A stretch of 25,250 nucleotides of DNA. It comes from a candidate division WOR-3 bacterium (GTDB taxonomy: Bacteria; SDB-A). The position numbers were made by a program, and so were the translations under genes. Each line of letters starts with the position of its first letter. Position 1 is the first letter of the stretch. Below, one piece after another: positions 3,360-24,236 of the stretch. The stretch covers positions 1-25,250 of the forward strand of contig JAFGON010000031.1 of NCBI GenBank assembly GCA_016926475.1, given 5' to 3'. A model generated the notes under the pieces. It saw nothing but the letters and a program-made list of their open reading frames with translations, did not search any database and had not been told where the DNA came from.

Positions 3360-4547
3360 TTAAGCCATTGAAACCAGAATTTTTACTAGATTTTTGGGGT
3401 CAATTTTCGGGTAACTCTGTGGAGATACCAGTTGAGTGTCAATGATTTTTACACCCAGTTCTTCAATTTTATTTTTTTCAATTCTAAACGGATAAGACGC
3501 GTTTTGAGTGTCCAAAAGCACGAAATTTAAAACTCCGGCCACTCTTTTAGGGCAGATTTTTAAATACTCTGAGATGGTTTTGATCTGACTTAAAAGATCT
3601 AAACCCTTCATTTCGGGATCAACGTAAGTGTTTGGGACGTAGATTTTAGTGTTGGGGTTGGCTAAAATCGATTTTCCGACATCAAGAGGCAAGAAATTCG
3701 ATATCAAGCTGGAATAAAAGCTTCCGAAGGGGTAACATATCAAGTCGGCGCTTTTTATCAGGTTAGAAATATCGGGTTTTATTTTTATTTCAAAGGGTTT
3801 CATGCCCTCGGGATCGCTTGAAAGATAAATTCTTTTAATGCGGGATTTGATTTTTGGCGTTTCTTTTCCGGTTATAAGGTGCTGACCGTAAAGAAAAGAG
3901 TGGTTTTGGAGTTCTGAGACAATATTTAGTGAATTTTGAACGACAGGTTTGACAATTCCTTTGACCCCGACCAACTTGGTGAATGTATAAAGAGTAGAAT
4001 CTATGTTCCTGTCGCTGGAAAGATAACCTCCTGCCAAGACAATGTTACCGATGTTGGCTCCCCGGAAATCGAATTTACCAGATGTTTTTTTTAAAAATTT
4101 TTTGATGTAGGCCGAAATAATACTTTTCATCGGGTAATCGATGGAGAGAATCAAGTCATGTTCTCCTTCGGACATTTTTATGAGTATGTCTCTTGCGGCA
4201 GAGTTTTTAACGTTGCTTGAAAGCCTGTAGCTGAACAACGAGTAGATTCTTTTATTTGATTTTTCGGATGTATCGGCTAAAGCCATCAACCTGTTCCTTA
4301 AATCTCCAACTGAGAGAACCCCGAATTCCTTTCGGATTTTTGCAGAACTTCCTCCTGAATCGAACGGCGTTATTAAGTGAATGGAATTATGCGTGTATTT
4401 GACAAGGACTTTTGATGTGTCCCTCAGGGAACTGCCTCCGCTGAAAAAAAGAATTTTTGGACCGTATTCAGGAGATTTTTTGTATCTGGCGCACACCCAG
4501 GGATCTTTCAATTTCACCCTTTTCCTCAAAATGATTTTTGTTTTCAT
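3360..4547 (-). CDS. CofD/YvcK-like protein of the GAK-like operon
   Basis: This protein of 395 residues belongs to the CofD/YvcK (2-phospholactate transferase / gluconeogenesis factor) superfamily. Visible marks are a glycine-rich nucleotide loop ILFFSGGSSLRD (about 35-43), PFDSGGSSAKIRKEFG (about 62-74), GDLRNRLM, and NIGNIVLAG followed by YPFGSFYSSL. CofD transfers a phospholactyl group from an activated GDP or GTP donor, while YvcK binds UDP-sugars. Which chemistry applies here is unknown, and the variant SGGSS in place of GGTG-type loops suits the GAK-associated subgroup. The start is the ATG with AGG six bases upstream; a TTG two codons earlier would leave no spacing to that site. Its start lies 2 bases after the HprK-like stop codon, so the pair is probably translationally coupled. 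Confidence 0.85.
   Translation of the reverse strand: MKTKIILRKRVKLKDPWVCARYKKSPEYGPKILFFSGGSSLRDTSKVLVKYTHNSIHLITPFDSGGSSAKIRKEFGVLSVGDLRNRLMALADTSEKSNKRIYSLFSYRLSSNVKNSAARDILIKMSEGEHDLILSIDYPMKSIISAYIKKFLKKTSGKFDFRGANIGNIVLAGGYLSSDRNIDSTLYTFTKLVGVKGIVKPVVQNSLNIVSELQNHSFLYGQHLITGKETPKIKSRIKRIYLSSDPEGMKPFEIKIKPDISNLIKSADLICYPFGSFYSSLISNFLPLDVGKSILANPNTKIYVPNTYVDPEMKGLDLLSQIKTISEYLKICPKRVAGVLNFVLLDTQNASYPFRIEKNKIEELGVKIIDTQLVSPQSYPKIDPKNLVKILVSMA
3365..3382. repeat. Right arm of the 18-bp inverted repeat, inside the CofD-like gene end
   Basis: The + strand reads ccattgaaaccagaattt. On the minus strand this encodes the last codons of the CofD-like protein (ILVSM just before the final Ala and stop). 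In the operon mRNA the two arms are complementary and could pair, looping out the amphi-Trp reading frame. Confidence 0.8.
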
Positions 4548-4549
4548 TT

Positions 4550-5611
4550 TCAACCTGAAATGGTTTTAAGAAAAAATTCCGAAGCGAAATCGAAGTCCGG
4601 TTTGCCGGTTGCTTCAAATACCCGGCTTTTTTCTAAAGTTCTCAAAAAAGATCTGTCTTGATCCGAATGATAATTACCAATATAAAAAAGACCCGGTGGT
4701 TTTAGAAATGACGGGTAAAGGTCAGGTCTGTTTTTCAATTCAATTCTTTCGATTTTTGTGTTCTCCGGCGATTTTCTTGACCAATTAAGTATTAGAAGAT
4801 ATTTTAATTTGCTTTCAAGTTTGAACTTTTCTTTTCCGAAAATGTCTTCGATAAACACGTCAAATTTTCTTTCTTCATTCCAAAGACTTTCTCTGTCCAT
4901 GCTTTTATAATAATCCAACTCGCTTTTTATCAACATTTGCCTTAAATAAGGGTTGTTTACAATAGTACCGGGATTAATTCGGGGATATTTGGCGATTCCG
5001 TAGATCAAGGCTTCATCTCCCGCGTCTTTGCATAAAACTCTGTCGTTGCTTATGAAAGCAAGTCCTCTGGATACAAGCTGCAGAGCGAGAGTTGATTTAC
5101 CTGTGCCTGAGAATCCTGATATGGCAATCCCTTTTCTGAAATGTGAGACAGCGGAAGAATGCAAAAGAATGCTTCCGGATTCGATCATTTTCTGAATAAA
5201 CCTGTTGTTGATGTAGTTTATTATCTGATTCGAATTGTTCAGACAATCCCCTATAGCAAGGTTGATATTTCCCCCGAAAACGAAAACCATACCGGTTAAA
5301 ATCTTTCTTACGCATCTGCCGTCAGTTAAATCATGGAATTCTTCTTTGATTTTATTTTTTCCTGGATCCGGTTGCTTTTTCTCGAAATTCAAGTTGAAAA
5401 ACAATTCTCGGCTGTTGGCGATTTCAATAATTGTCGCCTTATCGCATTGTCGTGAAATAAAATTACTGTAGTATTTTTTTAAAAGGGTTAAAAGGTCTTG
5501 CGAATCTGTTTTTATAGAAAATTTCTGACCGCAAAAATTCAGGCAGATGGAATATTTCATCTGAAATTTATCGTTGAATTCTTCTTTAATGGACTCCACT
5601 GTCCAATTCAA
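4550..5611 (-). CDS. HprK-like kinase of the GAK-like operon
   Basis: This P-loop protein of 353 residues is related to HPr kinase/phosphorylase. The Walker A motif GFSGTGKST is at residues 166-174 (K172), preceded by ILLHSSAV and followed by a Walker B-like region GLAFISNDRVLC. This is the arrangement of the HprK catalytic domain, but without HPr or PTS genes nearby. The substrate is unknown; a phosphate transfer onto a protein or small molecule handled by its operon partners is inferred. The start is a TTG placed 5 bases after GGAGG, and that GGAGG lies in the last codons of the ATP-grasp gene. The frame is open a further seven codons to another TTG with no such site. Only one base separates it from the ATP-grasp stop. 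Confidence 0.85.
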   Translation of the reverse strand: MNWTVESIKEEFNDKFQMKYSICLNFCGQKFSIKTDSQDLLTLLKKYYSNFISRQCDKATIIEIANSRELFFNLNFEKKQPDPGKNKIKEEFHDLTDGRCVRKILTGMVFVFGGNINLAIGDCLNNSNQIINYINNRFIQKMIESGSILLHSSAVSHFRKGIAISGFSGTGKSTLALQLVSRGLAFISNDRVLCKDAGDEALIYGIAKYPRINPGTIVNNPYLRQMLIKSELDYYKSMDRESLWNEERKFDVFIEDIFGKEKFKLESKLKYLLILNWSRKSPENTKIERIELKNRPDLYPSFLKPPGLFYIGNYHSDQDRSFLRTLEKSRVFEATGKPDFDFASEFFLKTISG

Positions 5612-5612
5612 A

Positions 5613-6500
5613 TTATCCTCCGATTTTGTCAATCACGTATTGGGCGTACATTTTTGCCGCATTAATGTTAAGAGCTTGGAAAAGGCCTTTAAAACCACCG
5701 AAAGGAGACGCTTCAAAAACAAGTGGCCCTTCAGGCGTCACTGCGATATCAATGCAAGTGAAATCGAGTTCAAAAAGATCCTGAGCTTTTTTTGCCATGT
5801 CGATTATCTCCGAAGAAGGCTCAAATTTTTCATACCTGCCTCCAGAGAGGGTAGTTGTGTTCCATGAATTGTTTGTCCTCACTCTTGCGTAGGATCCAAT
5901 GAAATTTCCGCCGAGGAAAACCACGCCTATGTCTTTTTGAGGGATTTCAACGAATTTCTGGATGTACATGATTGGATTTCCTTCATTTTGAAAATTCCGG
6001 ATATTGCTTTCTATTTCGATATCATCATGAAAGATGACTTTCATGCCTCTCGCTTTCGAAGTAAACAATGGTTTGAAAACGGCTTTTTTATAGATTTTCA
6101 CAGTTTCAAGCGCTTTTTTTGTGTCTTCCGTGATCACTGTAGCAGGAATTGGTATTCCACCTGTTTCTAACCTCAATGTGCCGCTTAGCCTGTCAAAGCA
6201 ATTCATCATAGAATCAGGTTTTGAAAATATTCGAGTGCCTTTTTGATGTAGATACTTTAAGAGTTCAAGACGTTCTAAAGTATCTGAATTGTATTGAGGG
6301 CCGATTTTTTTTACTATTATCGCATCCAGATGGCTCAGGTCTAAATCTTCGCAGGAAAGGCTTCCGGATATGGAATCATAGTGTACCTGCGACATGTCTA
6401 TAACTTTCCGGAAACCAGTTATTTTTTGGATTTCATCGGCCAAGATTTCAGTTGACCATGCGCCTGGGAGGCCAATAACCGCGATTTGATCTTTGATCAT
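5613..6500 (-). CDS. ATP-grasp ligase of the GAK-like operon
   Basis: This ATP-grasp protein of 295 residues is RimK-like. It has a pre-ATP-grasp domain with IAVIGLPGAWSTEILADE at the start, an ATP-binding core with KKAVFKPLFTSKARGM (about 138-153) and YIQKFVE, and a metal/phosphate-binding end TCIDIAVTPEGPLVFEASPFGGFKG (split by the family's usual E-x-N/S pattern, here EASP). ATP-grasp enzymes form an acyl phosphate and join a carboxylate to an amine or thiol, which makes this the likely bond-forming enzyme of the operon. The ATG overlaps the TGA of the PhoU-kinase gene as ATGA. Its own last codons supply the ribosome site for the next gene. Substrates are unknown. Confidence 0.85.
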   Translation of the reverse strand: MIKDQIAVIGLPGAWSTEILADEIQKITGFRKVIDMSQVHYDSISGSLSCEDLDLSHLDAIIVKKIGPQYNSDTLERLELLKYLHQKGTRIFSKPDSMMNCFDRLSGTLRLETGGIPIPATVITEDTKKALETVKIYKKAVFKPLFTSKARGMKVIFHDDIEIESNIRNFQNEGNPIMYIQKFVEIPQKDIGVVFLGGNFIGSYARVRTNNSWNTTTLSGGRYEKFEPSSEIIDMAKKAQDLFELDFTCIDIAVTPEGPLVFEASPFGGFKGLFQALNINAAKMYAQYVIDKIGG

Positions 6501-8113
6501 AAGGACAGAATCTCAACAGGGAAAATAAAATCCCCGTTTTTCTGTGAATCTGAAAGTTTCAATTTTTCCAATAAATATCTCGATCTCAGAAGCATCTCCT
6601 TCGCGAAGTCTTTTTCCAAAGCGAATCTGGTTGAAGTTATCAGGGATCTTGCTACGCCAATAGAAAGCCTTTGTTCAAACGTAGGGTCGTTTGCAGAACA
6701 GGCGAAAATCCTGACCTGTGAAAGAACGAAATTGTTTATTTCGTCGATTCTCGATCTCATCGAATTGTCGAAAATTGGAATTCTGAAATTAGACACCAAA
6801 AAAACTGACAAGTCCTGGACATAGTCACCGTATTTTGAACGGAAAAGGTCGACGAAAAATATCCTGTCTTCCGCTTGCCCGTACAAAATGTTGTCGGAAT
6901 TGAAGTCTCCGTGCAGCAAAACGGAAAATGAGCATGTGAATTTTTTTTCTTCCAGACTCTTAAGTTGCAAAAGTAAGTTTTTTATAGGAATTTGTCTGAT
7001 GTCGAGAACGCTGAGTTCCAATTCGTCGAATTCCGGATGAGCTCCTATTACGTCGTCAATTCTCGTCAACACTTGATTTATAAAATCAGATTTCGCAGGG
7101 GTATCTTTTTTTGTTTCTATCCAGACCGTTTTGATCTTGTCGCAGAGTCTTTTCACGGCTTTTTCAACTGTTTTGTCGTTTTCCGTGAATACCAATTGCT
7201 GAAAATTCATGGCGTCCAGATACTGAATCAGGAGGACGGCGTTGTTGTCTTTTTCCATAAAACCAAAGGTTTTAGGGACAAGGTCAGGAAATTTTTCTGA
7301 CCAGATTTTCAGGTTGTAATCTTCTTTTTGGAGCTTATCCCTGTTCCCTTCTTTGTAAATTATGTTGTCGTTAGAATTTTCTTTTTTATTTGTCTTAATC
7401 CTCTCAATACGGCATCCAGATTTCGTCTCGACTCCGATATCTTCAAGAAAGACGATATCACACTTGGTCTTTTCTTTTAACATCGTAAAATCGTAAATTT
7501 TGAGCCTGGTTCCCGCAACAGAAGAAATTATAGCCTCTCCAATATTTTGAAAAGCGTCTCCTATCCTTTCAAGGTATCTTATGATTGTGTATAGAGCCAG
7601 ATACTCTCTTGTCCTGTCCCCTGCTTTTTTGATTTTTTCAACCAATACCGTGAAATCTTCCTTGTACAAACCGTCCAAGATGAGTTCTGTTCGGCAGATT
7701 TTGATTGCGTTTTGAGTGTTTTTTGTGAAAAAACTTTTTTCAATAAGATCAATGGAGTTAAAAATCTCGTTGAAATACCTGTCAAAGTCTACATTCTGAA
7801 GGATGCTCTTTTCAAAAATATGAGAAGTTTGCTTAGAGATGCTCTCGCATAGATCGCCGATTCTTTCGAGGTTTGAAGCAATTGTATTCAGGGACATAAT
7901 TGTCATAAGATCAGTTTCTTTAGTGCTTTTGCTTAAAGATGAATAGGCTTTTTTCAAAATTATATTCTTCAGATTGTCAACGTAATTACCGGGGGAAAGA
8001 ATTCTGGAAGCGTCATTTTCATGCGGTGAAGAAAGGCATTCTTTTGTCGCGACTATCTGTTTTTTGACTTCGATAATCAGAAATTTTAAATTCTCTTCAA
8101 GGCTGAACTTCAT
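6497..8113 (-). CDS. PhoU domain fused to an aminoglycoside-phosphotransferase-like kinase
   Basis: This protein of 538 residues has two parts. Residues 1 to about 225 are a PhoU-type helical domain with both characteristic repeats, LERIGDLCESI (82-92) and LERIGDAFQNI (181-191); these helices usually bind metal clusters or regulate phosphate transporters. From about 235 onward is an APH/choline-kinase-like fold with the catalytic loop HGDFNSDNIL (H401, D403, N408) and the metal-binding Asp in FFVDLF (D422), so the key residues are intact. IVFLEDIGVETKSG and IERIKTNKKE may belong to the N-lobe. The ATG follows the amphi-Trp stop by one base without a clear ribosome site, so translation is probably coupled. 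Phosphorylation of a small molecule or protein under phosphate-type control is inferred. The substrate is not evident, and antibiotic resistance is not implied. Confidence 0.82.
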   Translation of the reverse strand: MKFSLEENLKFLIIEVKKQIVATKECLSSPHENDASRILSPGNYVDNLKNIILKKAYSSLSKSTKETDLMTIMSLNTIASNLERIGDLCESISKQTSHIFEKSILQNVDFDRYFNEIFNSIDLIEKSFFTKNTQNAIKICRTELILDGLYKEDFTVLVEKIKKAGDRTREYLALYTIIRYLERIGDAFQNIGEAIISSVAGTRLKIYDFTMLKEKTKCDIVFLEDIGVETKSGCRIERIKTNKKENSNDNIIYKEGNRDKLQKEDYNLKIWSEKFPDLVPKTFGFMEKDNNAVLLIQYLDAMNFQQLVFTENDKTVEKAVKRLCDKIKTVWIETKKDTPAKSDFINQVLTRIDDVIGAHPEFDELELSVLDIRQIPIKNLLLQLKSLEEKKFTCSFSVLLHGDFNSDNILYGQAEDRIFFVDLFRSKYGDYVQDLSVFLVSNFRIPIFDNSMRSRIDEINNFVLSQVRIFACSANDPTFEQRLSIGVARSLITSTRFALEKDFAKEMLLRSRYLLEKLKLSDSQKNGDFIFPVEILSL

Positions 8114-15367: not shown

Positions 15368-16489
15368 ATGAAAAGACTGCTCGCCGCTGTTATCGCGATT
15401 TGGGCGATAGCTTCCTGCAAGAACCCACAATTGGCGGGTGACAGAACCGTCAGGGTTGAAAGCCCTGCAATTGAAGTCGTCTTTGTCCTGGACGCTACCG
15501 GGAGCATGACAGGCCTGATTGAGGGTGCAAAACAAAAAATCTGGTCGATAGCAAATGAAATTCTCGAAGGTGATCCCGTTCCAGATGTCAGAATAGGACT
15601 TGTTGTATACAGAGACAGAGGGGATGAGTTCATAGTCAAAAAATACGATATAACGGACGACATAGATAAAATTTACGTCGACCTGACATCTGTGAGAGCT
15701 GACGGAGGAGGGGATTTTGAAGAAGATGTCAACCAGGCTCTTTCATGGGCTGTGGACAGCATGTCTTGGTCGGATTCGGAGAATGTTTTGAGGCTTGTGT
15801 TTCTCGTAGGCGACGCTCCTCCTCATATGGACTACAACGAAAAGGAATACAGAGAAATCTGCAAGGACGCTCTCGAGAATGAAATTATAATCAACACGGT
15901 GAGATGCGGCACGGAAGAAAACACGCGCAAGGTTTGGGAAGAGATTGCGCATCTTGCCGAAGGAACCTATACTTCGATAGGATACGAGGCGTCACAGACT
16001 ATAGCGACGCCTTACGACGAAGAGATAGCGGGTCTAAGCAGAGATTTGTACGGCACCGTTCTGATCTACGGAAAAACAGATGATGTCTCCATGGCAGAAG
16101 CCACTCTCGGAGCAAGCGAGGAGATAGCGGCTGGCTCTCCTTCTACCGCTGCCGACAGAGCTGTTTTTGCTTATTCGAAAGCTTCTTCCGGTTATGGGTT
16201 TGTGTCGGGAGATTTGGTCAGCGAAATTATTGAAGGAAATATTGATTTAAACGAAGTCGAAGAAGATGAAATGCCTGATCTTTTAAAAGATATGTCTATG
16301 GATCAAAGGGTCGCTTACATCGACAGCCTTAGAGTTGAAAGGGATAAAATCACGCAGAGGATGGCAGAATTGACCAGAATGAGAGATGATTATATCATGG
16401 AAAATTCCGGTGAAGTAAAGGATGCTTTCGACATCTTTGTCGTGGAGACATTGAAGAAACAAGCCGAAATAATCGGCGTCAGTTATTGA
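15368..16489 (+). CDS. VWA-domain lipoprotein
   Basis: This protein of 373 residues has a lipoprotein signal: hydrophobic stretch then IASC with the lipidation cysteine at C17. A von Willebrand A domain follows with an intact metal-ion site, beginning VVFVLDATGSM (D42, T44, S46), and later VFLVGDAPPHMD. RIGLVVYRDRGDEF and GGGDFEEDVNQAL (the third metal loop) complete the fold. The C-terminal 60 residues are a charged helix (DKITQRMAELTRMRDDYIME) that may form a coiled coil. AAAGGAGG gives a strong ribosome site. It is nine bases upstream of the VIT-VWA gene, whose ribosome site overlaps its stop codon, so the two are co-expressed and probably work together at the cell envelope as adhesion or assembly proteins. 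Confidence 0.82.
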   Translation: MKRLLAAVIAIWAIASCKNPQLAGDRTVRVESPAIEVVFVLDATGSMTGLIEGAKQKIWSIANEILEGDPVPDVRIGLVVYRDRGDEFIVKKYDITDDIDKIYVDLTSVRADGGGDFEEDVNQALSWAVDSMSWSDSENVLRLVFLVGDAPPHMDYNEKEYREICKDALENEIIINTVRCGTEENTRKVWEEIAHLAEGTYTSIGYEASQTIATPYDEEIAGLSRDLYGTVLIYGKTDDVSMAEATLGASEEIAAGSPSTAADRAVFAYSKASSGYGFVSGDLVSEIIEGNIDLNEVEEDEMPDLLKDMSMDQRVAYIDSLRVERDKITQRMAELTRMRDDYIMENSGEVKDAFDIFVVETLKKQAEIIGVSY

Positions 16490-16497
16490 GGTGAAAA

Positions 16498-18606
16498 ATG
16501 AAAATGTTTTTATTGCTCATACTCTCCCTTTTCGCTTCGTTGTTAAAAGCGGACGGTTTCATCATAGTACCCCCGGAACCGTATCTACCGAATCCGATTC
16601 AGGTAGAAGTAAAGTATCATCATGTGGACATTGAGCTGGATCACCAGTTCGCCCAGGTTCACATCGACCAGGAATTTTACAATCCTAACAACCGGGAAGT
16701 GGAAGGAAGATACATCTTTCCGATACCTGAAGAGGCTGCTGTATCGGATTTTGTACTGTGGATAGAAGGGGAAAAAGTTCATGGTGAAATCAAAGACGCC
16801 GAAGAAGCCATGCGGATATACCAGGATATCGTCCTGAGAATGATAGATCCGGCGATTCTCAGATATGCCGGTCAGGATATGTTTGAGGCGAGAATATACC
16901 CTTTTCCCGCAAAAGGGTCAAGAAGGTCCGAGCTCGATTACCAGCAACTCGTCAGAAAGGACGGAAATCTATACAGGTTTATTTACCCTCTTTCTACCGA
17001 GAGGTTCTCTTCAAAAAACCTTGAAAGCGCGGTCATAAGGATAGACCTTGAAACCGACAAACCTATCAAAAACATCTATTCTCCTTCCCATCTGATAGAC
17101 GTCAGCTACATAGATTCGAAACACGCAGAGATTACATGGGAAGAAAGGGACGTTAAACCAGACAAGGATTTCATACTCTATTATTCTTTGAACGAAGAAG
17201 AAGTGGACCTGTCGGTGATAACATATAAACCCAAAAGAGGAGACGACGGATATTTTATTCTTCTCGGCTCGGTGGGAAGCGGTGAAGTTCAAGCTACCCC
17301 CAAAGACATAGTTTTCGTAGTCGACCGTTCAGGATCGATGAGGGGCGAGAGGATTGAAATGGTAATTGACGCTTTAGAATACTGCGTTGACAACCTAAAC
17401 CCCGATGACAGGTTCAACATTATAACCTTTTCATCGAGGACAGAAACACTTTTCGAAGACCTTTCGAGAGCTTCAAGGGTCAACGTCGGCGACGCAGAAG
17501 ATTTTATAGAGGACATAGTCGCAAGAGGAGGCACAAATATCGGGAGTGCGTTGGACCTGGCATTCGATCAGGATTTCAACGGTGACAGGCCATCTTTCAT
17601 AGTTTTTTTGACTGACGGGTATCCGACAGTTGGCGAGATGGACTTGGGTAAAATTGTAGAGAAAGTCGAAGGTTTCGACGATGCCAAAATGTTCGTCTTC
17701 GGGATAGGCAAGGACGAAATCAACGCGATCTTGCTCGACGCGATGTCCGAAGCCGGCAGAGGACTCGTGGAATACGTAAAAGACGGCGATACTCTGGACG
17801 TCATAATAAGCTCTTTCTACGACAAGATTTCCCATCCTGTCTTGACAGACATATCAGTCAACTTTGGAACGGCAGGCGCTTACGATATCGTTCCACGGAC
17901 TCTGCCCGATATTTTTGAAGGTCAACAGCTCATCATTACCGGAAGATACAGAAACGGAGGGGATTCGAGGATTTATCTGACGGGAGAAAGAGGCGGCGAC
18001 AAGCAGGAATTCATTTTCACAGCGGATTTCACCGAATACGACAGGGACCTCGATTTTATCGGCCGCTACTGGGCGATGAGACAGGTAGGAACGCTTCTCA
18101 GGGAAATCAGGTTGAACGGTGAAAATCCCGAACTTGTGAGCGACATAAAAGCTATAGCCCTTGAGTTCGGAATTGTCACGCCCTACACTTCCTACCTTGT
18201 CACCGAGACAGAAGAAATGCTCGCCGGAGGAGATTTTGACGACATCAGGACCATGTCCTCTGAAGAGCTGATGAGAGACGGTTCGCTTGCTCCCGCAATG
18301 GGCGAAAAAAGCGCCTCCGGTGGTTTCGCGGTGGATGTCTCGAGCACAATAGACAGAATGGCAGAGGGGCGGGTTCAGGAAGTCGTGCACAACCCCGTTA
18401 TAAATTACATAAACGGAGTTACATTCGTTAAAGAAGGCAATGTGTGGAGGCAAAACGGTTATGAAGGCCAGACAGTTGAAAAAATAGTTTTTGGAAGCGA
18501 TGAATTCTTCAAACTTCTGTCTGAAAGTCCTGAGGCAGGTGATTTCATGTCTCTTGGAGACGTGATTTTCAAAATTGGTGACGCCTGGTTTGAGCTGACA
18601 CGCTGA
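16498..18606 (+). CDS. Secreted VIT and VWA domain protein
   Basis: This protein of 702 residues is built like the inter-alpha-trypsin inhibitor heavy chain family. A signal peptide (about 1-18) leads to a VIT domain (about 25-150, with VHIDQEFYNPNN and VEGRYIFPIPEEAAV). A VWA domain follows with an intact metal-ion site: DRSGSM (276-281), GGTNIGS (T346) and LTDGYP (D373). A beta-rich C-terminal part follows, with GIVTPYTSYLVTE (typical of this family). No transmembrane segment or lipobox is seen after the signal peptide, so it is likely periplasmic or released. Partners are unknown; the lipoprotein VWA gene just upstream is the best candidate. It ends at a strong terminator. Confidence 0.85.
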   Translation: MKMFLLLILSLFASLLKADGFIIVPPEPYLPNPIQVEVKYHHVDIELDHQFAQVHIDQEFYNPNNREVEGRYIFPIPEEAAVSDFVLWIEGEKVHGEIKDAEEAMRIYQDIVLRMIDPAILRYAGQDMFEARIYPFPAKGSRRSELDYQQLVRKDGNLYRFIYPLSTERFSSKNLESAVIRIDLETDKPIKNIYSPSHLIDVSYIDSKHAEITWEERDVKPDKDFILYYSLNEEEVDLSVITYKPKRGDDGYFILLGSVGSGEVQATPKDIVFVVDRSGSMRGERIEMVIDALEYCVDNLNPDDRFNIITFSSRTETLFEDLSRASRVNVGDAEDFIEDIVARGGTNIGSALDLAFDQDFNGDRPSFIVFLTDGYPTVGEMDLGKIVEKVEGFDDAKMFVFGIGKDEINAILLDAMSEAGRGLVEYVKDGDTLDVIISSFYDKISHPVLTDISVNFGTAGAYDIVPRTLPDIFEGQQLIITGRYRNGGDSRIYLTGERGGDKQEFIFTADFTEYDRDLDFIGRYWAMRQVGTLLREIRLNGENPELVSDIKAIALEFGIVTPYTSYLVTETEEMLAGGDFDDIRTMSSEELMRDGSLAPAMGEKSASGGFAVDVSSTIDRMAEGRVQEVVHNPVINYINGVTFVKEGNVWRQNGYEGQTVEKIVFGSDEFFKLLSESPEAGDFMSLGDVIFKIGDAWFELTR

Positions 18607-18626
18607 TCAGGCGGAAACGATCATAG

Positions 18627-18654
18627 AAAGGCGGTCCCCGGACCGCCTTTTTTT
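18627..18654 (+). terminator. Rho-independent terminator of the VWA operon
   Basis: aaaggcggtc pairs with gaccgccttt across a four-base loop, and the stem runs into a T tract of seven. It lies 20 bases after the VIT-VWA stop codon and separates that operon from the cyclase operon. Confidence 0.9.
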
Positions 18655-18655
18655 A

Positions 18656-18684: not shown

Positions 18685-18736
18685 TATTGCATCTGCGGAA
18701 AATGATCCGCCGTCACTTCCTTTGGGAAAGGAACAG

Positions 18737-20647
18737 ATGGAAGACATCGGCGATATCGAAAAAAATCTCGAATCCTGTTCAGACGACGATGAAAGAGTTT
18801 CTGTTCTCCTTGAAATGTCCGAAAAATGGCGAAATAAAAACATCGAAAAATCGTTATTTTTCTCTGAAAAGGCTCTGTCAATTGCAGAGAATAACGGCGA
18901 CAAAAGGCAGATTGCCAAATCTGTTTTTTACGTGGGCACAGGAAAGGCTCTTTGCGGAAAACTCCGAGAATCCGTGATCTTGTTTGAAAAAGCCCTCGAA
19001 ATCGCCGAAGAGATAGGCGATGAGGGGCTTAAAGCGTCTTTGTGTAGTAGTGTCGGCCTGAACAGGTATTACCTGGGAGACTACGCCTTAGCACTTGAAA
19101 AACTCGAGAAAGCCGTGACATTTTCGAAAGAAACCGGAAATGAAATTGTCTTAGCTCAGGCTTTGAGCAACCTCGCTCTTGTTTACGATAAAATCGGAAA
19201 GCCTGAAAAATCGCTGGAACTGCTTCTGGAGAGCTTGCGGATTGAAGAAAGCCTGGAAAAGAATTTCGTAAAAATTGCCGATACACTCGGCAATATCGGC
19301 ACAATATACAAAAGTATATCTGACATTGAAAAAGCTTTTGAGTTCTACGAAAAAAGCCTGATTCTATATATAAGAGCGAGAGATAAAAAGGGGATGGCGG
19401 GGGCAATGTCAAACATGGCGAGTGTTTTCGAAGAAAAAGGAAGTGTTGAAAAGGCTCAGAAGTATTACTCAAAAGCGTTGAAATTAGCCCGTGAAGTTGA
19501 CCACAGGGAATTTGAATCTAAAATACTCAACAACCTGGGTTTTCTTTTTTTCAATAAGAAAATTTTCGCAAAATCGCTCGAATATTATTACGAAGCTTTG
19601 AAAATAGCCGAAGAAACTTCAAACAAGAGCTCTGAAGCGAACTATCTTAACAACATTGCCAACGTTTTCAAGGAAACCGGTGAAATCGAGAAAGCCAGAA
19701 GCCATGCCGAAAAGGCATTGTCAATTGCAGAGGAAATATCGGACGTGAGACTTGAATCCGAAATACTCAAAAATCTGTCTGCTCTCTTGAACGATAAAGG
19801 AGACCACAGAAGGGCTTACGAGTTGTTGAAAAAAGCCGTTCAAATCAGCGATTCTCTTTACGAGGATAGTATCGCAAAAAAGATAACGGACCTTGAAATC
19901 AGATTTGAGGTGGAAAAAAGGGAAAGGGAGGCAGAAATTGCCGGAACGAGAGCGGAAATATTCAGGTTGAAAAATACCGAACTGAATGAATTGCTTGTTA
20001 ACCTCGAAATTGAAAAAAGCAAAACAGAATCACTTCTGGAGGTCGTCCTGCCCAGAGAGGTTATTGAAGACCTGAAGAAAGGAAAGATGGCAGGATACCG
20101 GAAATTTGAAGGGGTTACAGTGTTTTATTCAGATATAGCGGAATTTACCCGTATCTCTTCGGAGTTGACCCCGGATGTGCTGATCGATGAACTGAACGAT
20201 ATGTTTTCCGCTTTCGACCTGATCCTTGAAAAACACGGAATAGAAAGGATCATGACGATCGGAGACGCCTGCCTTGCAGCATCGGGTCTGTTCGGTGAAA
20301 ATCAATTCGACCCAGGCAGGATCGTCGCCGCCGCCGTAGAATGCCAAAAATACACAGCCGAAAGAAACAACCAGGCACGAATACCGTGGTTAGTCAGAAT
20401 AGGGATCCACACGGGTGGAGTATTGGGCGGAGTCATGGGAGGCAAGAGGTATATCTTCGACATCATGGGTGAGGGTGTGGATGTAGCCAAATTCATTGAA
20501 ACTTCGGTTGAGCCGTCCGAGATAGGTCTGTCGGAGAAAACCGTGTCGTACTTAAAAGACATTTACACCTTTTCGGAGCCTGAGACGTTGGATATTCCAG
20601 GATACGAAAAAGTAAAAGTTATGACTATAGTGAACGAGTATACATGA
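18737..20647 (+). CDS. TPR protein with a C1-like class III nucleotide cyclase domain
   Basis: This protein of 636 residues has roughly ten tetratricopeptide repeats (about 20-385), a helical linker rich in Glu/Lys (about 385-450) and a class III cyclase domain (about 455-636). The two metal-binding aspartates are present: D466 in FYSDIAEF and D510 in MTIGDACLA. The residues used from the partner chain are lost: the base-selecting Lys is M506, the transition-state Asn is D582 and the Arg is F586 in FDIMGEGVDVAKFI. A homodimer should therefore be inactive, and the metal half needs a partner. The TPR domain probably senses or binds a protein. AAGGAA precedes the ATG; an upstream in-frame TTG has no such site. 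It overlaps the next gene as ATGA. Confidence 0.85.
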   Translation: MEDIGDIEKNLESCSDDDERVSVLLEMSEKWRNKNIEKSLFFSEKALSIAENNGDKRQIAKSVFYVGTGKALCGKLRESVILFEKALEIAEEIGDEGLKASLCSSVGLNRYYLGDYALALEKLEKAVTFSKETGNEIVLAQALSNLALVYDKIGKPEKSLELLLESLRIEESLEKNFVKIADTLGNIGTIYKSISDIEKAFEFYEKSLILYIRARDKKGMAGAMSNMASVFEEKGSVEKAQKYYSKALKLAREVDHREFESKILNNLGFLFFNKKIFAKSLEYYYEALKIAEETSNKSSEANYLNNIANVFKETGEIEKARSHAEKALSIAEEISDVRLESEILKNLSALLNDKGDHRRAYELLKKAVQISDSLYEDSIAKKITDLEIRFEVEKREREAEIAGTRAEIFRLKNTELNELLVNLEIEKSKTESLLEVVLPREVIEDLKKGKMAGYRKFEGVTVFYSDIAEFTRISSELTPDVLIDELNDMFSAFDLILEKHGIERIMTIGDACLAASGLFGENQFDPGRIVAAAVECQKYTAERNNQARIPWLVRIGIHTGGVLGGVMGGKRYIFDIMGEGVDVAKFIETSVEPSEIGLSEKTVSYLKDIYTFSEPETLDIPGYEKVKVMTIVNEYT

Positions 20648-22521
20648 ACAGCTCGCGGAAAACGGAAGATTTAGTCCACCATCACCTAAAAGAAGCCAAA
20701 AGTAATTGCAGATCGGATCCGGATAAAACGCTGATGCATGCGTTGGAGGCGTTGAAGCTTTCTTTGAAAAAGCCTGCCGGCGTTGAAAAAATAACCGCTC
20801 TCAATTTAGTCGGTATGGGTCTGGCGTTAAAACTCGAATATTTAAAAGCTTTGAAATGTTTTAAAAAAGCGCTTGAAGAAAACGATAAGCACGGAGACAG
20901 GAAAAGATCGTGTTCTATATGCAACAACATAGGACTGGCTCTTGTAGACTCCTTCAAATACGAAGAAGCTTTCGTTTACTTCGAAAAGGCAAGGGAAACA
21001 GCCCATGAAATGGGACTGAAAAAACAGCTTGCGATTGTATACCAGAACATTGCCCGGTTGTTTCTTGTTTCCGGAGATTATGACCAAGCGATACAATTCC
21101 TTTTTAAAGGACTTGACCAGGCAGAAAATGATTTTGCTTTAGTAGCGGAGATAAGAGTCAGCATCGGAGAATTGTATTTCAGGATGAAGGACTGGAAGAA
21201 AGCGTTGGAGTTTCATAGTGCAGCACTCGATGTTTTCGAAAGAACCGGCGATGCGATAGGAACCGCCGGGCAATACAACAATTTGGCTCTCGTTTTTGAA
21301 GCCCAAGGAAAAGAGCGACAGGCAATAGAACATTTACAAAAAGCCCTTGAAATGGCAGAAGAAATTAAACACTTGGAATTCATTTCCATAATGACGACGA
21401 ACATGGCTAGGCTTTATTCAAAGACAGGAGACGATGAAAACGAAAAAATGTTTCTAGAGAGAACTTTGAGAGAAAACGAGGAATTGAACAACACTGAAAA
21501 TCTGGCTGTAATCCACAGAAGCTTCGGCGATTATTACCTGAAAACGGGTGATTTAACTAAAGCCCTTGATAGTTATAGCTTATCTCGCGAAATGTCCATG
21601 ATGGTCCGGAATAAGTCAACACTGATGGACAGCGAGAAATCCCTTGCGGATTACTATTCAGCCGTCGAGGATTTCGGTATGGCGTATATTCATTTGGATA
21701 AATATATGTCGTTAAAATCCGAGCTTTTTCAGGAGAAAATAACAGAAAAAGTACGTGAAACGCAGGTAAGGTTCCTCGTCGAGCGAAAACAAAAAGATAT
21801 TGAACAAGCTAAAGCGGAAGCAAATTTTTTTGAGCAGAAAAACAAAGAACTCGAATCTGCCAGACATAAATTTGAAACCGAGAAAGCTAAATCCGACTCG
21901 CTTGTCTTAAGCATATTACCCTCTGTCGTCGCTTACGAGCTCAAGGAGAAGGGTGAGTTTAAACCGAGAATATACGACGAAGTTACGGTATGCATGATCG
22001 AGTTTCCGGAATTGGCAAAATTGCTGAAAAAAGAGGATTTTTCTTCCGTTCTCGAAGAACTTAACGGCATCTACTCGGTATTTGACATGAAGTTTGATCT
22101 GATGAACTGTGAAAAGATTAAAACATTCGAAAACAAGTACATAGCCGTAAGCGGAATGCCTTTGCCGGATGAAAACCATACTTTCAACATGGTGCGAGTC
22201 GCTGTAGAAAACGCAAGATACATGAAGGATAGAGCCCAAAGAGGAGGATTTAATTGGGCGGTTAAAGCCGGTATTCATTCGGGAAAAGTTATAGGGGGAA
22301 TTGTCGGCAAGAGGAAATACCTCTACGACATATTCGGAGATACCGTAAACAAGGCGGCGAGAATTCTGGAGGCCTCGGGACCCGATAGAATAAGTCTGTC
22401 CGAGACGGCATTTTTCCGTGTTAAAAACAACGTCAAATCATTTGAGGTGGCTGAAAAAAGCTTGAAGGGAATTGGAAGAACAAAAATATACTCTTTTAGC
22501 GAGTCCGACTGGTATGAATGA
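20644..22521 (+). CDS. TPR protein with a C2-like class III nucleotide cyclase domain
   Basis: This protein of 625 residues is a paralog of the preceding one: TPR repeats (about 10-380), a coiled-coil linker, then a cyclase domain (about 443-625). The losses are the reverse of its neighbour. The metal aspartates are E453 (VCMIEFPEL) and N497 (KTFENKYIA), but the base-selecting K493 (EKIKT) and D562 (YDIFGD) and the transition-state N569 and R573 (DTVNKAARI) are intact. The Lys/Asp pair predicts ATP and hence cAMP, where guanylyl cyclases use Glu/Cys. It is expected to give the second half of one composite active site with the upstream gene product. The start overlaps the upstream stop codon and the stop overlaps the next start. 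Confidence 0.85.
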   Translation: MNSSRKTEDLVHHHLKEAKSNCRSDPDKTLMHALEALKLSLKKPAGVEKITALNLVGMGLALKLEYLKALKCFKKALEENDKHGDRKRSCSICNNIGLALVDSFKYEEAFVYFEKARETAHEMGLKKQLAIVYQNIARLFLVSGDYDQAIQFLFKGLDQAENDFALVAEIRVSIGELYFRMKDWKKALEFHSAALDVFERTGDAIGTAGQYNNLALVFEAQGKERQAIEHLQKALEMAEEIKHLEFISIMTTNMARLYSKTGDDENEKMFLERTLRENEELNNTENLAVIHRSFGDYYLKTGDLTKALDSYSLSREMSMMVRNKSTLMDSEKSLADYYSAVEDFGMAYIHLDKYMSLKSELFQEKITEKVRETQVRFLVERKQKDIEQAKAEANFFEQKNKELESARHKFETEKAKSDSLVLSILPSVVAYELKEKGEFKPRIYDEVTVCMIEFPELAKLLKKEDFSSVLEELNGIYSVFDMKFDLMNCEKIKTFENKYIAVSGMPLPDENHTFNMVRVAVENARYMKDRAQRGGFNWAVKAGIHSGKVIGGIVGKRKYLYDIFGDTVNKAARILEASGPDRISLSETAFFRVKNNVKSFEVAEKSLKGIGRTKIYSFSESDWYE

Positions 22522-23548
22522 AGAAAAAAACAATAGTCCGGGTGTCGAAAGAATGCTTGACACAGCCACTTCAAAACTCGACGAAGACCCGATCTTGGCT
22601 CTTGAGATTGCGGAAAAAGCCCTAAAGGAAGCCCGGATACAGAATTTAACTGACGCTGAAAAAATGGCTCTCCGAATGCGCGCGAGAATTTTGGCTAGGA
22701 TAGGTAATTACAGCAAAGCGATTGAACGTTATGAGGAAAACAGCATCCTTTTCAAGGACGACAAAAAGGTTCTGTCGGAAACTTACAAAGACATAGGTCT
22801 GGTCCTTTACTATGTTAGCGATTATGACAGAGCTTTGAAGGAACTCGACAAATCGATGAAATTAGCCCAAGAACTTGGCGATGCAACCATTGTAGCTCAG
22901 GTCAACAACAACAAAGGAATCGTGCTTACCGCGCTGGGAAGATACGATGAATCTATTGCAATGCTCGAACTATCTCTTGCCCAGAAAAACGGCATTCGAA
23001 ACTATCCCGAAGTGAGTATCGCAAACACTTTAGCCAGCATAGGCGATTTGTATGACAAAAAGAATGAAATTTACAAGGCGTTCGACTATTTTGAAAAAGC
23101 CCTCAGATTGTACAGGAAAAACAAACCCGGAGTGGCGGCTCAACTTTGCAACATAGGTAATTGTCTGAAAAGCATCGGTAAGAAAGACGAAGCTGTAAAA
23201 CATTACGAAGAGGCGCTGGAGATTGTTCGAACGATTAAGCACAGGGAATTCGAGGCGAACATTCTTTACAACCTGGCAAACGCAATCGCAGTACTCGGTG
23301 ATATAAAAAAGGCTAAGAAGTGTTTTGGGGAATCACTGAAGATAAACAACGAACTTGGAGATCCGCAAGCCGTGGCGAATATCAAGCTTGAATTTTCATC
23401 GATTAAGACAAAGGAGAGAAAATTTGACGAATCTATTTCTCTTTTGAAGGAAGCTCAAGAGATTGCAGAAAAAATCCGGGAATCTCCGCTTTCAATGAAG
23501 ATATGCGAAGAACTTGCTAATGTGTACGAAATGAAAAAAGATTACTAA
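22514..23548 (+). pseudogene. Third TPR paralog, truncated before its cyclase domain
   Basis: This product of 344 residues has about seven TPR repeats resembling the two genes before it. A TAA then falls in the middle of a repeat (after YEMKKDY), and the frame beyond continues for some 15 codons as SLEYYRKYKNIKERI, which is the usual next helix. Matching sequence ends near 23595, inside the 3' end of the opposite-strand barrel gene. So the linker and the cyclase domain are missing, presumably by a deletion or rearrangement plus a nonsense change. The ATG overlaps the upstream stop by 8 bases; an in-frame TTG 42 bases earlier is less likely. It may still be made as a free TPR protein that binds its paralogs' partners. 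Confidence 0.65.
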
Positions 23549-23582
23549 AGATCTCTGGAATATTACAGGAAATACAAAAACA

Positions 23583-24236
23583 TCAAAGAACGTATCCGAG
23601 GCCGACCATCATAGAAGTTGTCTTGTTTTTCTGGTCGATCAAAAAAGGAAGTTCATTTTCTTGATCATGAACGGGTTTCAGGCCCAGGGTGTGCCTTATG
23701 TCTATTGAAAGGATCCATTTTCTGAAATCGAGGACGACGATATCCATCTGAGCTCCGATGGTCAATCCGAAATCAGAAGATTTCACTTTGCCGTTGAGGA
23801 GATACTCTATGTCTTCGGTGACGGGATGTGTTCCGATAGGAAAATTGCTGACTCCGCCGGCAAAAAACGAATAATAAGGTCCGGCGAGAAGGTTGTATTT
23901 CAGTGTGCCCCTGTCTAAGATCTTTAATTTAACCAGCAGAGGGCATTCGATATAATAAATGCACACTGATTTTTTGTATTTCGTAAAACCGATAAGGTAA
24001 GTGTTCTCTTTGCCTTTTGAAGTGAAGTTGAATTCAGGCTGAAAAGACAAAAAATCGTTTACCGTTATGTTGACAAAAGAACCGACGTAAAAACCACGTC
24101 TCGTTCCGTCATCGCTGAGCTGTCCTCCATAAAGACTCGAGACGTTTAAGCCAGTCTTGATTCCGGTTATTATCCCAGCCCAAGTAAAATTCGCTGAAAA
24201 AGCAAAGAAAATAAATAATGACAATGTTTTTTTCAT
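23583..24236 (-). CDS. Outer-membrane beta-barrel protein (porin-like, PorT-type)
   Basis: This protein of 217 residues has a signal peptide (MKKTLSLFIFFAFSANFTWA). It opens like other small barrels of the family (GIKTGLNVSSLYGG), with further strands FYVGSFVNITVNDFLSFQPEF and LLVKLKIL, and it ends TTSMMVGLGYVL. Its length and spacing of glycine-aromatic strands suit an eight-stranded barrel. An in-frame TTG 39 bases upstream was rejected, because it lies at or above the predicted promoter and adds no plausible leader peptide. The gene is convergent with the truncated TPR gene and its 3' end covers the break point there. Confidence 0.78.
   Translation of the reverse strand: MKKTLSLFIFFAFSANFTWAGIITGIKTGLNVSSLYGGQLSDDGTRRGFYVGSFVNITVNDFLSFQPEFNFTSKGKENTYLIGFTKYKKSVCIYYIECPLLVKLKILDRGTLKYNLLAGPYYSFFAGGVSNFPIGTHPVTEDIEYLLNGKVKSSDFGLTIGAQMDIVVLDFRKWILSIDIRHTLGLKPVHDQENELPFLIDQKNKTTSMMVGLGYVL

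Follow-up and report, generated by a model that had tools for sequence, protein, structure and literature searches.

Two adjacent genes, cyc1 and cyc2, of a candidate division WOR-3 bacterium very probably encode the two chains of a class III adenylyl cyclase that is an obligate heterodimer, and these chains would together form one catalytic site and one pseudo-site. Judging from the residues that they carry, both products are class III cyclases and neither is self-sufficient, since neither chain has the complete catalytic residues of a homodimeric cyclase. The one-site heterodimer of animal adenylyl cyclases is usually told as a eukaryotic duplication and fusion that started from bacterial homodimers. 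If the present reading is true, an unfused bacterial pair, together with an apparent intermediate in a related genome (G003) and complete relatives outside the family, makes the transition from homodimer to heterodimer directly testable. The pair would also represent a small cyclase of two components with an output that hinges on their pairing, and it would raise the question of what a dead pseudo-site is good for.

Organization of the locus

The window analyzed here is the whole stretch of 25,250 nucleotides, which is one contig of a source genome of 2.15 Mb in 106 contigs. Each of the four genomes that were examined from the phylum (that of the window and those called G001, G002, and G003) has adjacent cyc1 and cyc2 genes, at 35–56% identity; these four are the only genomes in which the pair was found, and all belong to one family. 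In the window, cyc1, cyc2, and a third gene, tpr3, are three overlapping plus-strand genes located 3' of a strong intrinsic terminator, which sets the cyclase genes apart from the upstream VIT/VWA gene (Table 1). A Shine-Dalgarno-like sequence (GGAAAGGAA) precedes the cyc1 ATG, which is therefore preferred as the start over the TTG located upstream at 18722. The preliminary description was correct on the gene coordinates, the reading frames, and the ATGA overlap between cyc1 and cyc2, and it had also proposed that the overlap suits equimolar production of the two chains. The overlap, found in the window, G002, and G001 but not in G003, suggests co-production but not equimolarity.

Table 1. Positions of the features of the cyclase locus in the window.
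Feature	Position	Strand	Remark
Intrinsic terminator of upstream VIT/VWA gene	18625..18655	+	12-pair stem and T tract
cyc1: TPR array, helical linker, and class III cyclase domain	18737..20647	+	ORF; 636 aa
cyc1 cyclase domain	20102..20623	+	PF00211 match
cyc1 codon D466	20132-20134		
cyc1 codon M506	20252-20254		
cyc1 codon D510	20264-20266		
cyc1 codon R554	20396-20398		
cyc1 codon D582	20480-20482		
cyc1 codon F586	20492-20494		
cyc1/cyc2 ATGA start/stop overlap	20644..20647	+	
cyc2: TPR array, helical linker, and class III cyclase domain	20644..22521	+	ORF; 625 aa
cyc2 cyclase domain	21970..22494	+	PF00211 match
cyc2 codon E453	22000-22002		
cyc2 codon K493	22120-22122		
cyc2 codon N497	22132-22134		
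cyc2 codon D562	22327-22329		
cyc2 codon N569	22348-22350		
cyc2 codon R573	22360-22362		
cyc2 codon K608	22465-22467		
tpr3: TPR-only third gene	22514..23548	+	8-base overlap with cyc2

Pfam domains found are TPR_12 in cyc1 and Guanylate_cyc in both proteins (1.9e-32 in cyc1 and 1.2e-27 in cyc2), and the PF00211 scores of cyc1 (112.7 bits) and cyc2 (97.1 bits) are far above the curated cut-off of 21.9. The tpr3 gene is paralogous to the TPR parts of cyc1 and cyc2, and a gene of this TPR-only type, which the preliminary description had overlooked, follows the pair in each of the four genomes; its product may be a regulatory partner of cyc1 and cyc2. The window copy has an in-frame TAA at 23546, and the frame (22514-23611) goes on as RSLEYYRKYKNIKERI. 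Since RSLEYYRKYKNIKERI resembles the ends of intact orthologs, this copy appears to be about 20 residues short, or there is a base error.

A VWA gene and then a VIT+VWA (inter-alpha-trypsin-like) gene occupy 15368-18606, directly upstream of the cyclase locus. Upstream genes with closely similar C-terminal ends are found at the same places in G002 and G001, and none precede the pair in G003. Elsewhere in the window, a close run of minus-strand genes (3360-8113) encodes CofD-like, HPr-kinase-C-like, and ATP-grasp proteins and one protein of the PhoU plus phosphotransferase-like type.

Catalytic residues and predicted pairing

The class III cyclase fold is predicted for both proteins by AlphaFold2, with pLDDT of 92.0 (cyc1) and 95.0 (cyc2) in the cyclase domains, and the best PDB matches are cyclase domains with Z up to 26.6 and 27.4, respectively. 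In the models, the metal positions lie where the first strand ends and in the hairpin loop, the Asn and Arg positions are in the helix after it, and the triphosphate Arg and Lys positions are where a strand begins and in a late loop, respectively. These locations agree with a solved class III cyclase (PMC2576301). Residues named in the preliminary description were not shifted, and the same register was obtained with phmmer against AC8 and AC9, with MAFFT, and with a profile HMM. An alignment shift as an explanation was rejected by these three alignments and the two structure models.

Residues are given below in the order of first and second metal positions and, after a slash, Lys, base Asp, Asn, and Arg. 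By the profile HMM alignment, cyc1 is DD/MDDF (D466, D510/M506, D575, D582, F586) and cyc2 is EN/KDNR (E453, N497/K493, D562, N569, R573), with every residue that had been named earlier at its stated position. The complementary losses that had been proposed were thus found: cyc1 keeps both metal aspartates and has lost Lys, Asn, and Arg, whereas in cyc2 both metal aspartates are lost and Lys, Asp, Asn, and Arg remain. The more specific claim that each chain lacks an entire half-site was right for cyc2 and went too far for cyc1, in which the base-selecting D575 is kept; what cyc1 has lost is Lys, Asn, Arg, and the triphosphate Lys, and not its whole base/transition-state half.

The C1/C2-type partition, which had been described for the named residues, extends to other sites. 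In class III cyclases, one chain provides both metal aspartates and the triphosphate Arg, and its partner provides Asn, Arg, and the triphosphate Lys (PMC2576301). The phosphate-loop Phe and Thr and the triphosphate Arg are kept in cyc1 and lost in cyc2, and the triphosphate Lys is kept in cyc2 and lost in cyc1. Columns that are conserved in the outgroup were tabulated to compare the losses of each subunit. Only cyc2 lacks the phosphate-loop Phe and Thr, the Gly that precedes the second metal Asp, and the RIGIH Arg; only cyc1 lacks the Lys and one Gly of KGKG, a C-terminal motif, as well as the Phe and Asp that directly follow the base Asp. Because the chain assignment of PMC2576301 matches, these additional losses are on the predicted sides. 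The chance that the losses of the window pair fall in this way among ten positions is about 2e-4, before conservation in relatives is counted. A chance pattern was rejected by the ten-position partition and its conservation.

On this basis, a mechanism can be proposed. An ancestral homodimeric TPR-cyclase would have duplicated in tandem, after which cyc1 would have lost the base/transition-state half-site and retained the metal/triphosphate half, and cyc2 would have lost the metal half and retained the other; the losses and the retained halves alike are seen in the sequences. Head-to-tail pairing of cyc1 and cyc2, as in established class III structures, would give one working site, where D466 and D510 of cyc1 would bind two Mg and K493, D562, N569, and R573 of cyc2 would hold adenine, ribose, and the transition state, and the second site would be a dead pseudo-site. 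Either protein alone is expected to be inactive. For cyc2, this expectation follows from the mammalian C2 homodimer, which lacks metal residues and is inactive (PMC4174876); Glu and Asn can bind metals in some enzymes, and weak activity of a cyc2 homodimer is conceivable.

The product would most likely be cAMP, which may be read by the five cNMP_binding proteins encoded in the genome. Lys and Asp occupy the base-selecting positions of cyc2, the C2-like chain, from which ATP is inferred as the substrate; the earlier prediction of cAMP from K493 and D562 is in line with this adenylyl-cyclase type, and the two residues are invariant in all four cyc2 proteins. Base preference of class III cyclases may depart from residue rules, and the pseudo-site residues M506 and D582 are unusual, both of which would favor cGMP or a cyclic pyrimidine nucleotide as the product of the heterodimer. 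With the adenylyl-cyclase-type Lys/Asp pair invariant in cyc2, such a product is unlikely.

Conservation and evolution of the pair

The adjacent pairs in the relatives are DD/MDDK and EN/KDNR in G002, DD/MEDY and GE/KDNR in G001, and DD/MDDY and ED/KDNR in G003. In all four genomes, cyc1 has Met for Lys and Asp for Asn, and cyc2 keeps KDNR and has lost the first metal Asp. When ten residues were counted, cyc1 had 5/5 of the C1 side in every genome and 0–1/5 of the C2 side, and cyc2 had 0/5 of the C1 side (2/5 in G003) and 4–5/5 of the C2 side. The same complementary losses that had been expected in adjacent homologs were therefore found, only partly so in G003, where cyc2 has the second metal Asp and apparently represents an intermediate state. 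Since the four examined genomes of the phylum all share the pattern, it is neither chance nor one degraded copy.

This conservation bears on another explanation, in which cyc1 and cyc2 are both dead pseudo-cyclases acting as TPR/coiled-coil scaffolds or nucleotide sensors, with losses caused by decay after duplication. Degenerate cyclase domains do exist (EN/KDKL in genome G121, described below), many poorly conserved cyclase domains are found in the genome of the window, and the third gene, a paralog with TPRs only, lacks a cyclase domain. Nevertheless, the losses are partitioned between the chains and conserved in four genomes at 35–56% identity. In all four, moreover, the retained halves are complete or almost complete, including residues beyond the six named ones. 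Because complementary halves would not survive decay, we consider this explanation very unlikely.

Maintenance of the genes is also seen at the level of substitutions. Between the window and G002 (about 55% identity), dN is 0.34–0.35, synonymous sites are saturated, and all frames are open, which shows purifying selection on the genes. The maintenance of each retained half in four genomes led us to reject decay of either copy or of both.

In a tree built without the six catalytic columns, the cyc1 proteins form one clade and the cyc2 proteins form another (both 100/99) with identical internal order; therefore, the two genes have been inherited together. In the free tree, cyc1 and cyc2 were not resolved as sisters, and constraining them to a single clade gave a higher likelihood and was not rejected (p-AU 0.78), which is in keeping with duplication in the lineage but is not proof of it.

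A further explanation is that one subunit partners another, complete cyclase of the cell, in a regulatory or dominant-negative role. G003 has a complete TPR-family cyclase (C147, DD/KDNR), which could cross-pair, and the genome of the window has further distant cyclases. Such an arrangement is highly improbable, because no complete cyclase near this family is found in the genome of the window, where the best other matches are far weaker, and because adjacency, overlap, co-inheritance, and reciprocal losses point to the neighbors as partners.

For the obligate heterodimer of cyc1 and cyc2, regulation would involve the TPR arrays, which probably receive a protein or peptide signal and, together with the third TPR-only product, probably set when the catalytic domains meet via the helical linker. 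The preliminary description had assigned control of dimerization to TPR arrays on both chains, which is not general: cyc2 of G001 (302 aa) has lost almost all TPRs, and therefore a full TPR array on cyc2 is not essential in that genome. In cyc1, the replacements at 506 (Lys to Met), 582 (Asn to Asp), and 579 (Asp to Glu) do not vary among the four genomes; since this holds at 36–56% identity, selection on the dead site is suggested, perhaps for binding of a regulatory ligand. We propose only tentatively that an obligate C1/C2 adenylyl cyclase encoded by two genes arose independently in this lineage, that its pseudo-site is functional and allosteric, and that TPR3 is a third, regulatory subunit.

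Comparison with other cyclases

Profile searches with cyc1 and with cyc2 were conducted over 386 diverse genomes, considering best matches only, so that a distant split pair could be missed. Among these matches and in a scan of the genome contigs, the split pattern was found only in this family, and the two-gene split seems to be an independent development of this bacterial lineage. The nearest TPR-cyclases of other phyla among the matches have the canonical DD/KDNR, except one with GD/KDNR, and in the ten-residue count, nearly all homologs outside the family have 9–10/10 (one has 8, and that of G121 has 4). Near-misses to the split are EN/KDKL in G121, with both halves degenerate, and GD/KDNR in L093.

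The G121 protein (contig C77; L126:1320-2528) is a single class III relative with losses in both halves and is probably a pseudo-cyclase. In Plebeiobacterium sediminum (L087:4404-6678), two adjacent overlapping cyclase frames have the triphosphate Arg replaced (by Lys and Thr). Since both of these chains keep all six named residues, adjacency alone does not imply complementarity.

The chemistry proposed for cyc1 and cyc2 is already known from mammalian C1/C2 and soluble guanylyl cyclase (sGC) alpha/beta. In mammalian transmembrane adenylyl cyclases (e.g., C1 of AC5 with C2 of AC2, 1azs/1cjk), both metal aspartates and the triphosphate Arg are likewise on one subunit, the other gives Lys/Asp for base recognition, Asn/Arg, and the triphosphate Lys, and there are one catalytic site and one pseudo-site, as predicted here from sequence. 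The Asn-to-Asp change of cyc1 is shared with the C1 domain of AC8. The mammalian enzymes differ in that a single polypeptide contains both C1 and C2 along with two membrane domains of six helices each, whereas here two genes with TPR arrays are used and this single-chain membrane architecture is not found. sGC also has separately encoded homologous subunits, a helical linker, and a heterodimeric catalytic unit (PMC2576301). It differs from cyc1/cyc2 in H-NOX/PAS sensing and in its cGMP product, as the base residues of cyc1/cyc2 are of the ATP type; no Pfam match to H-NOX was found in cyc1 or cyc2, and only a short weak HNOBA match was found in the cyc2 linker.

The bacterial homodimeric class III cyclase Rv1625c (5o5k) has the same catalytic fold (Z 26.6 with cyc1 and 27.3 with cyc2), and many TPR-cyclases of Bacteroidota, Thiotrichales, Cloacimonadota, and others have a similar frame length and the same linker and cyclase end. 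Each chain of a bacterial homodimer has the complete catalytic set, so that two equal sites can form, unlike in cyc1 and cyc2 with half each. According to a review, bacterial monomers contribute equally to two sites, and the duplication and fusion that gave the pseudoheterodimer took place in early eukaryotes (PMC9552081). Rhodopsin guanylyl cyclases of chytrids (RGC/NeoR) are also obligate heterodimers of two gene products; however, their cyclase domains keep all catalytic residues (PMC8815786), so that the heterodimer must be needed for another reason. In the open-access papers searched, no heterodimeric class III cyclase encoded by two bacterial genes was found, and subscription literature could hold one.

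Two-domain cyclases are encoded elsewhere in the genome of the window. Open frames of about 1275–1400 aa with two weak cyclase domains each are located on contigs C33, C105, C24, C49, and C8 (L011, L015, L014, L010, and L017, respectively). In several of these proteins, domain 1 keeps the metal Asp pair and has lost the partner residues, and domain 2 has T-N-R or S-N-R; by their residues, these would have a soluble-AC-like C1/C2 arrangement inside one chain.
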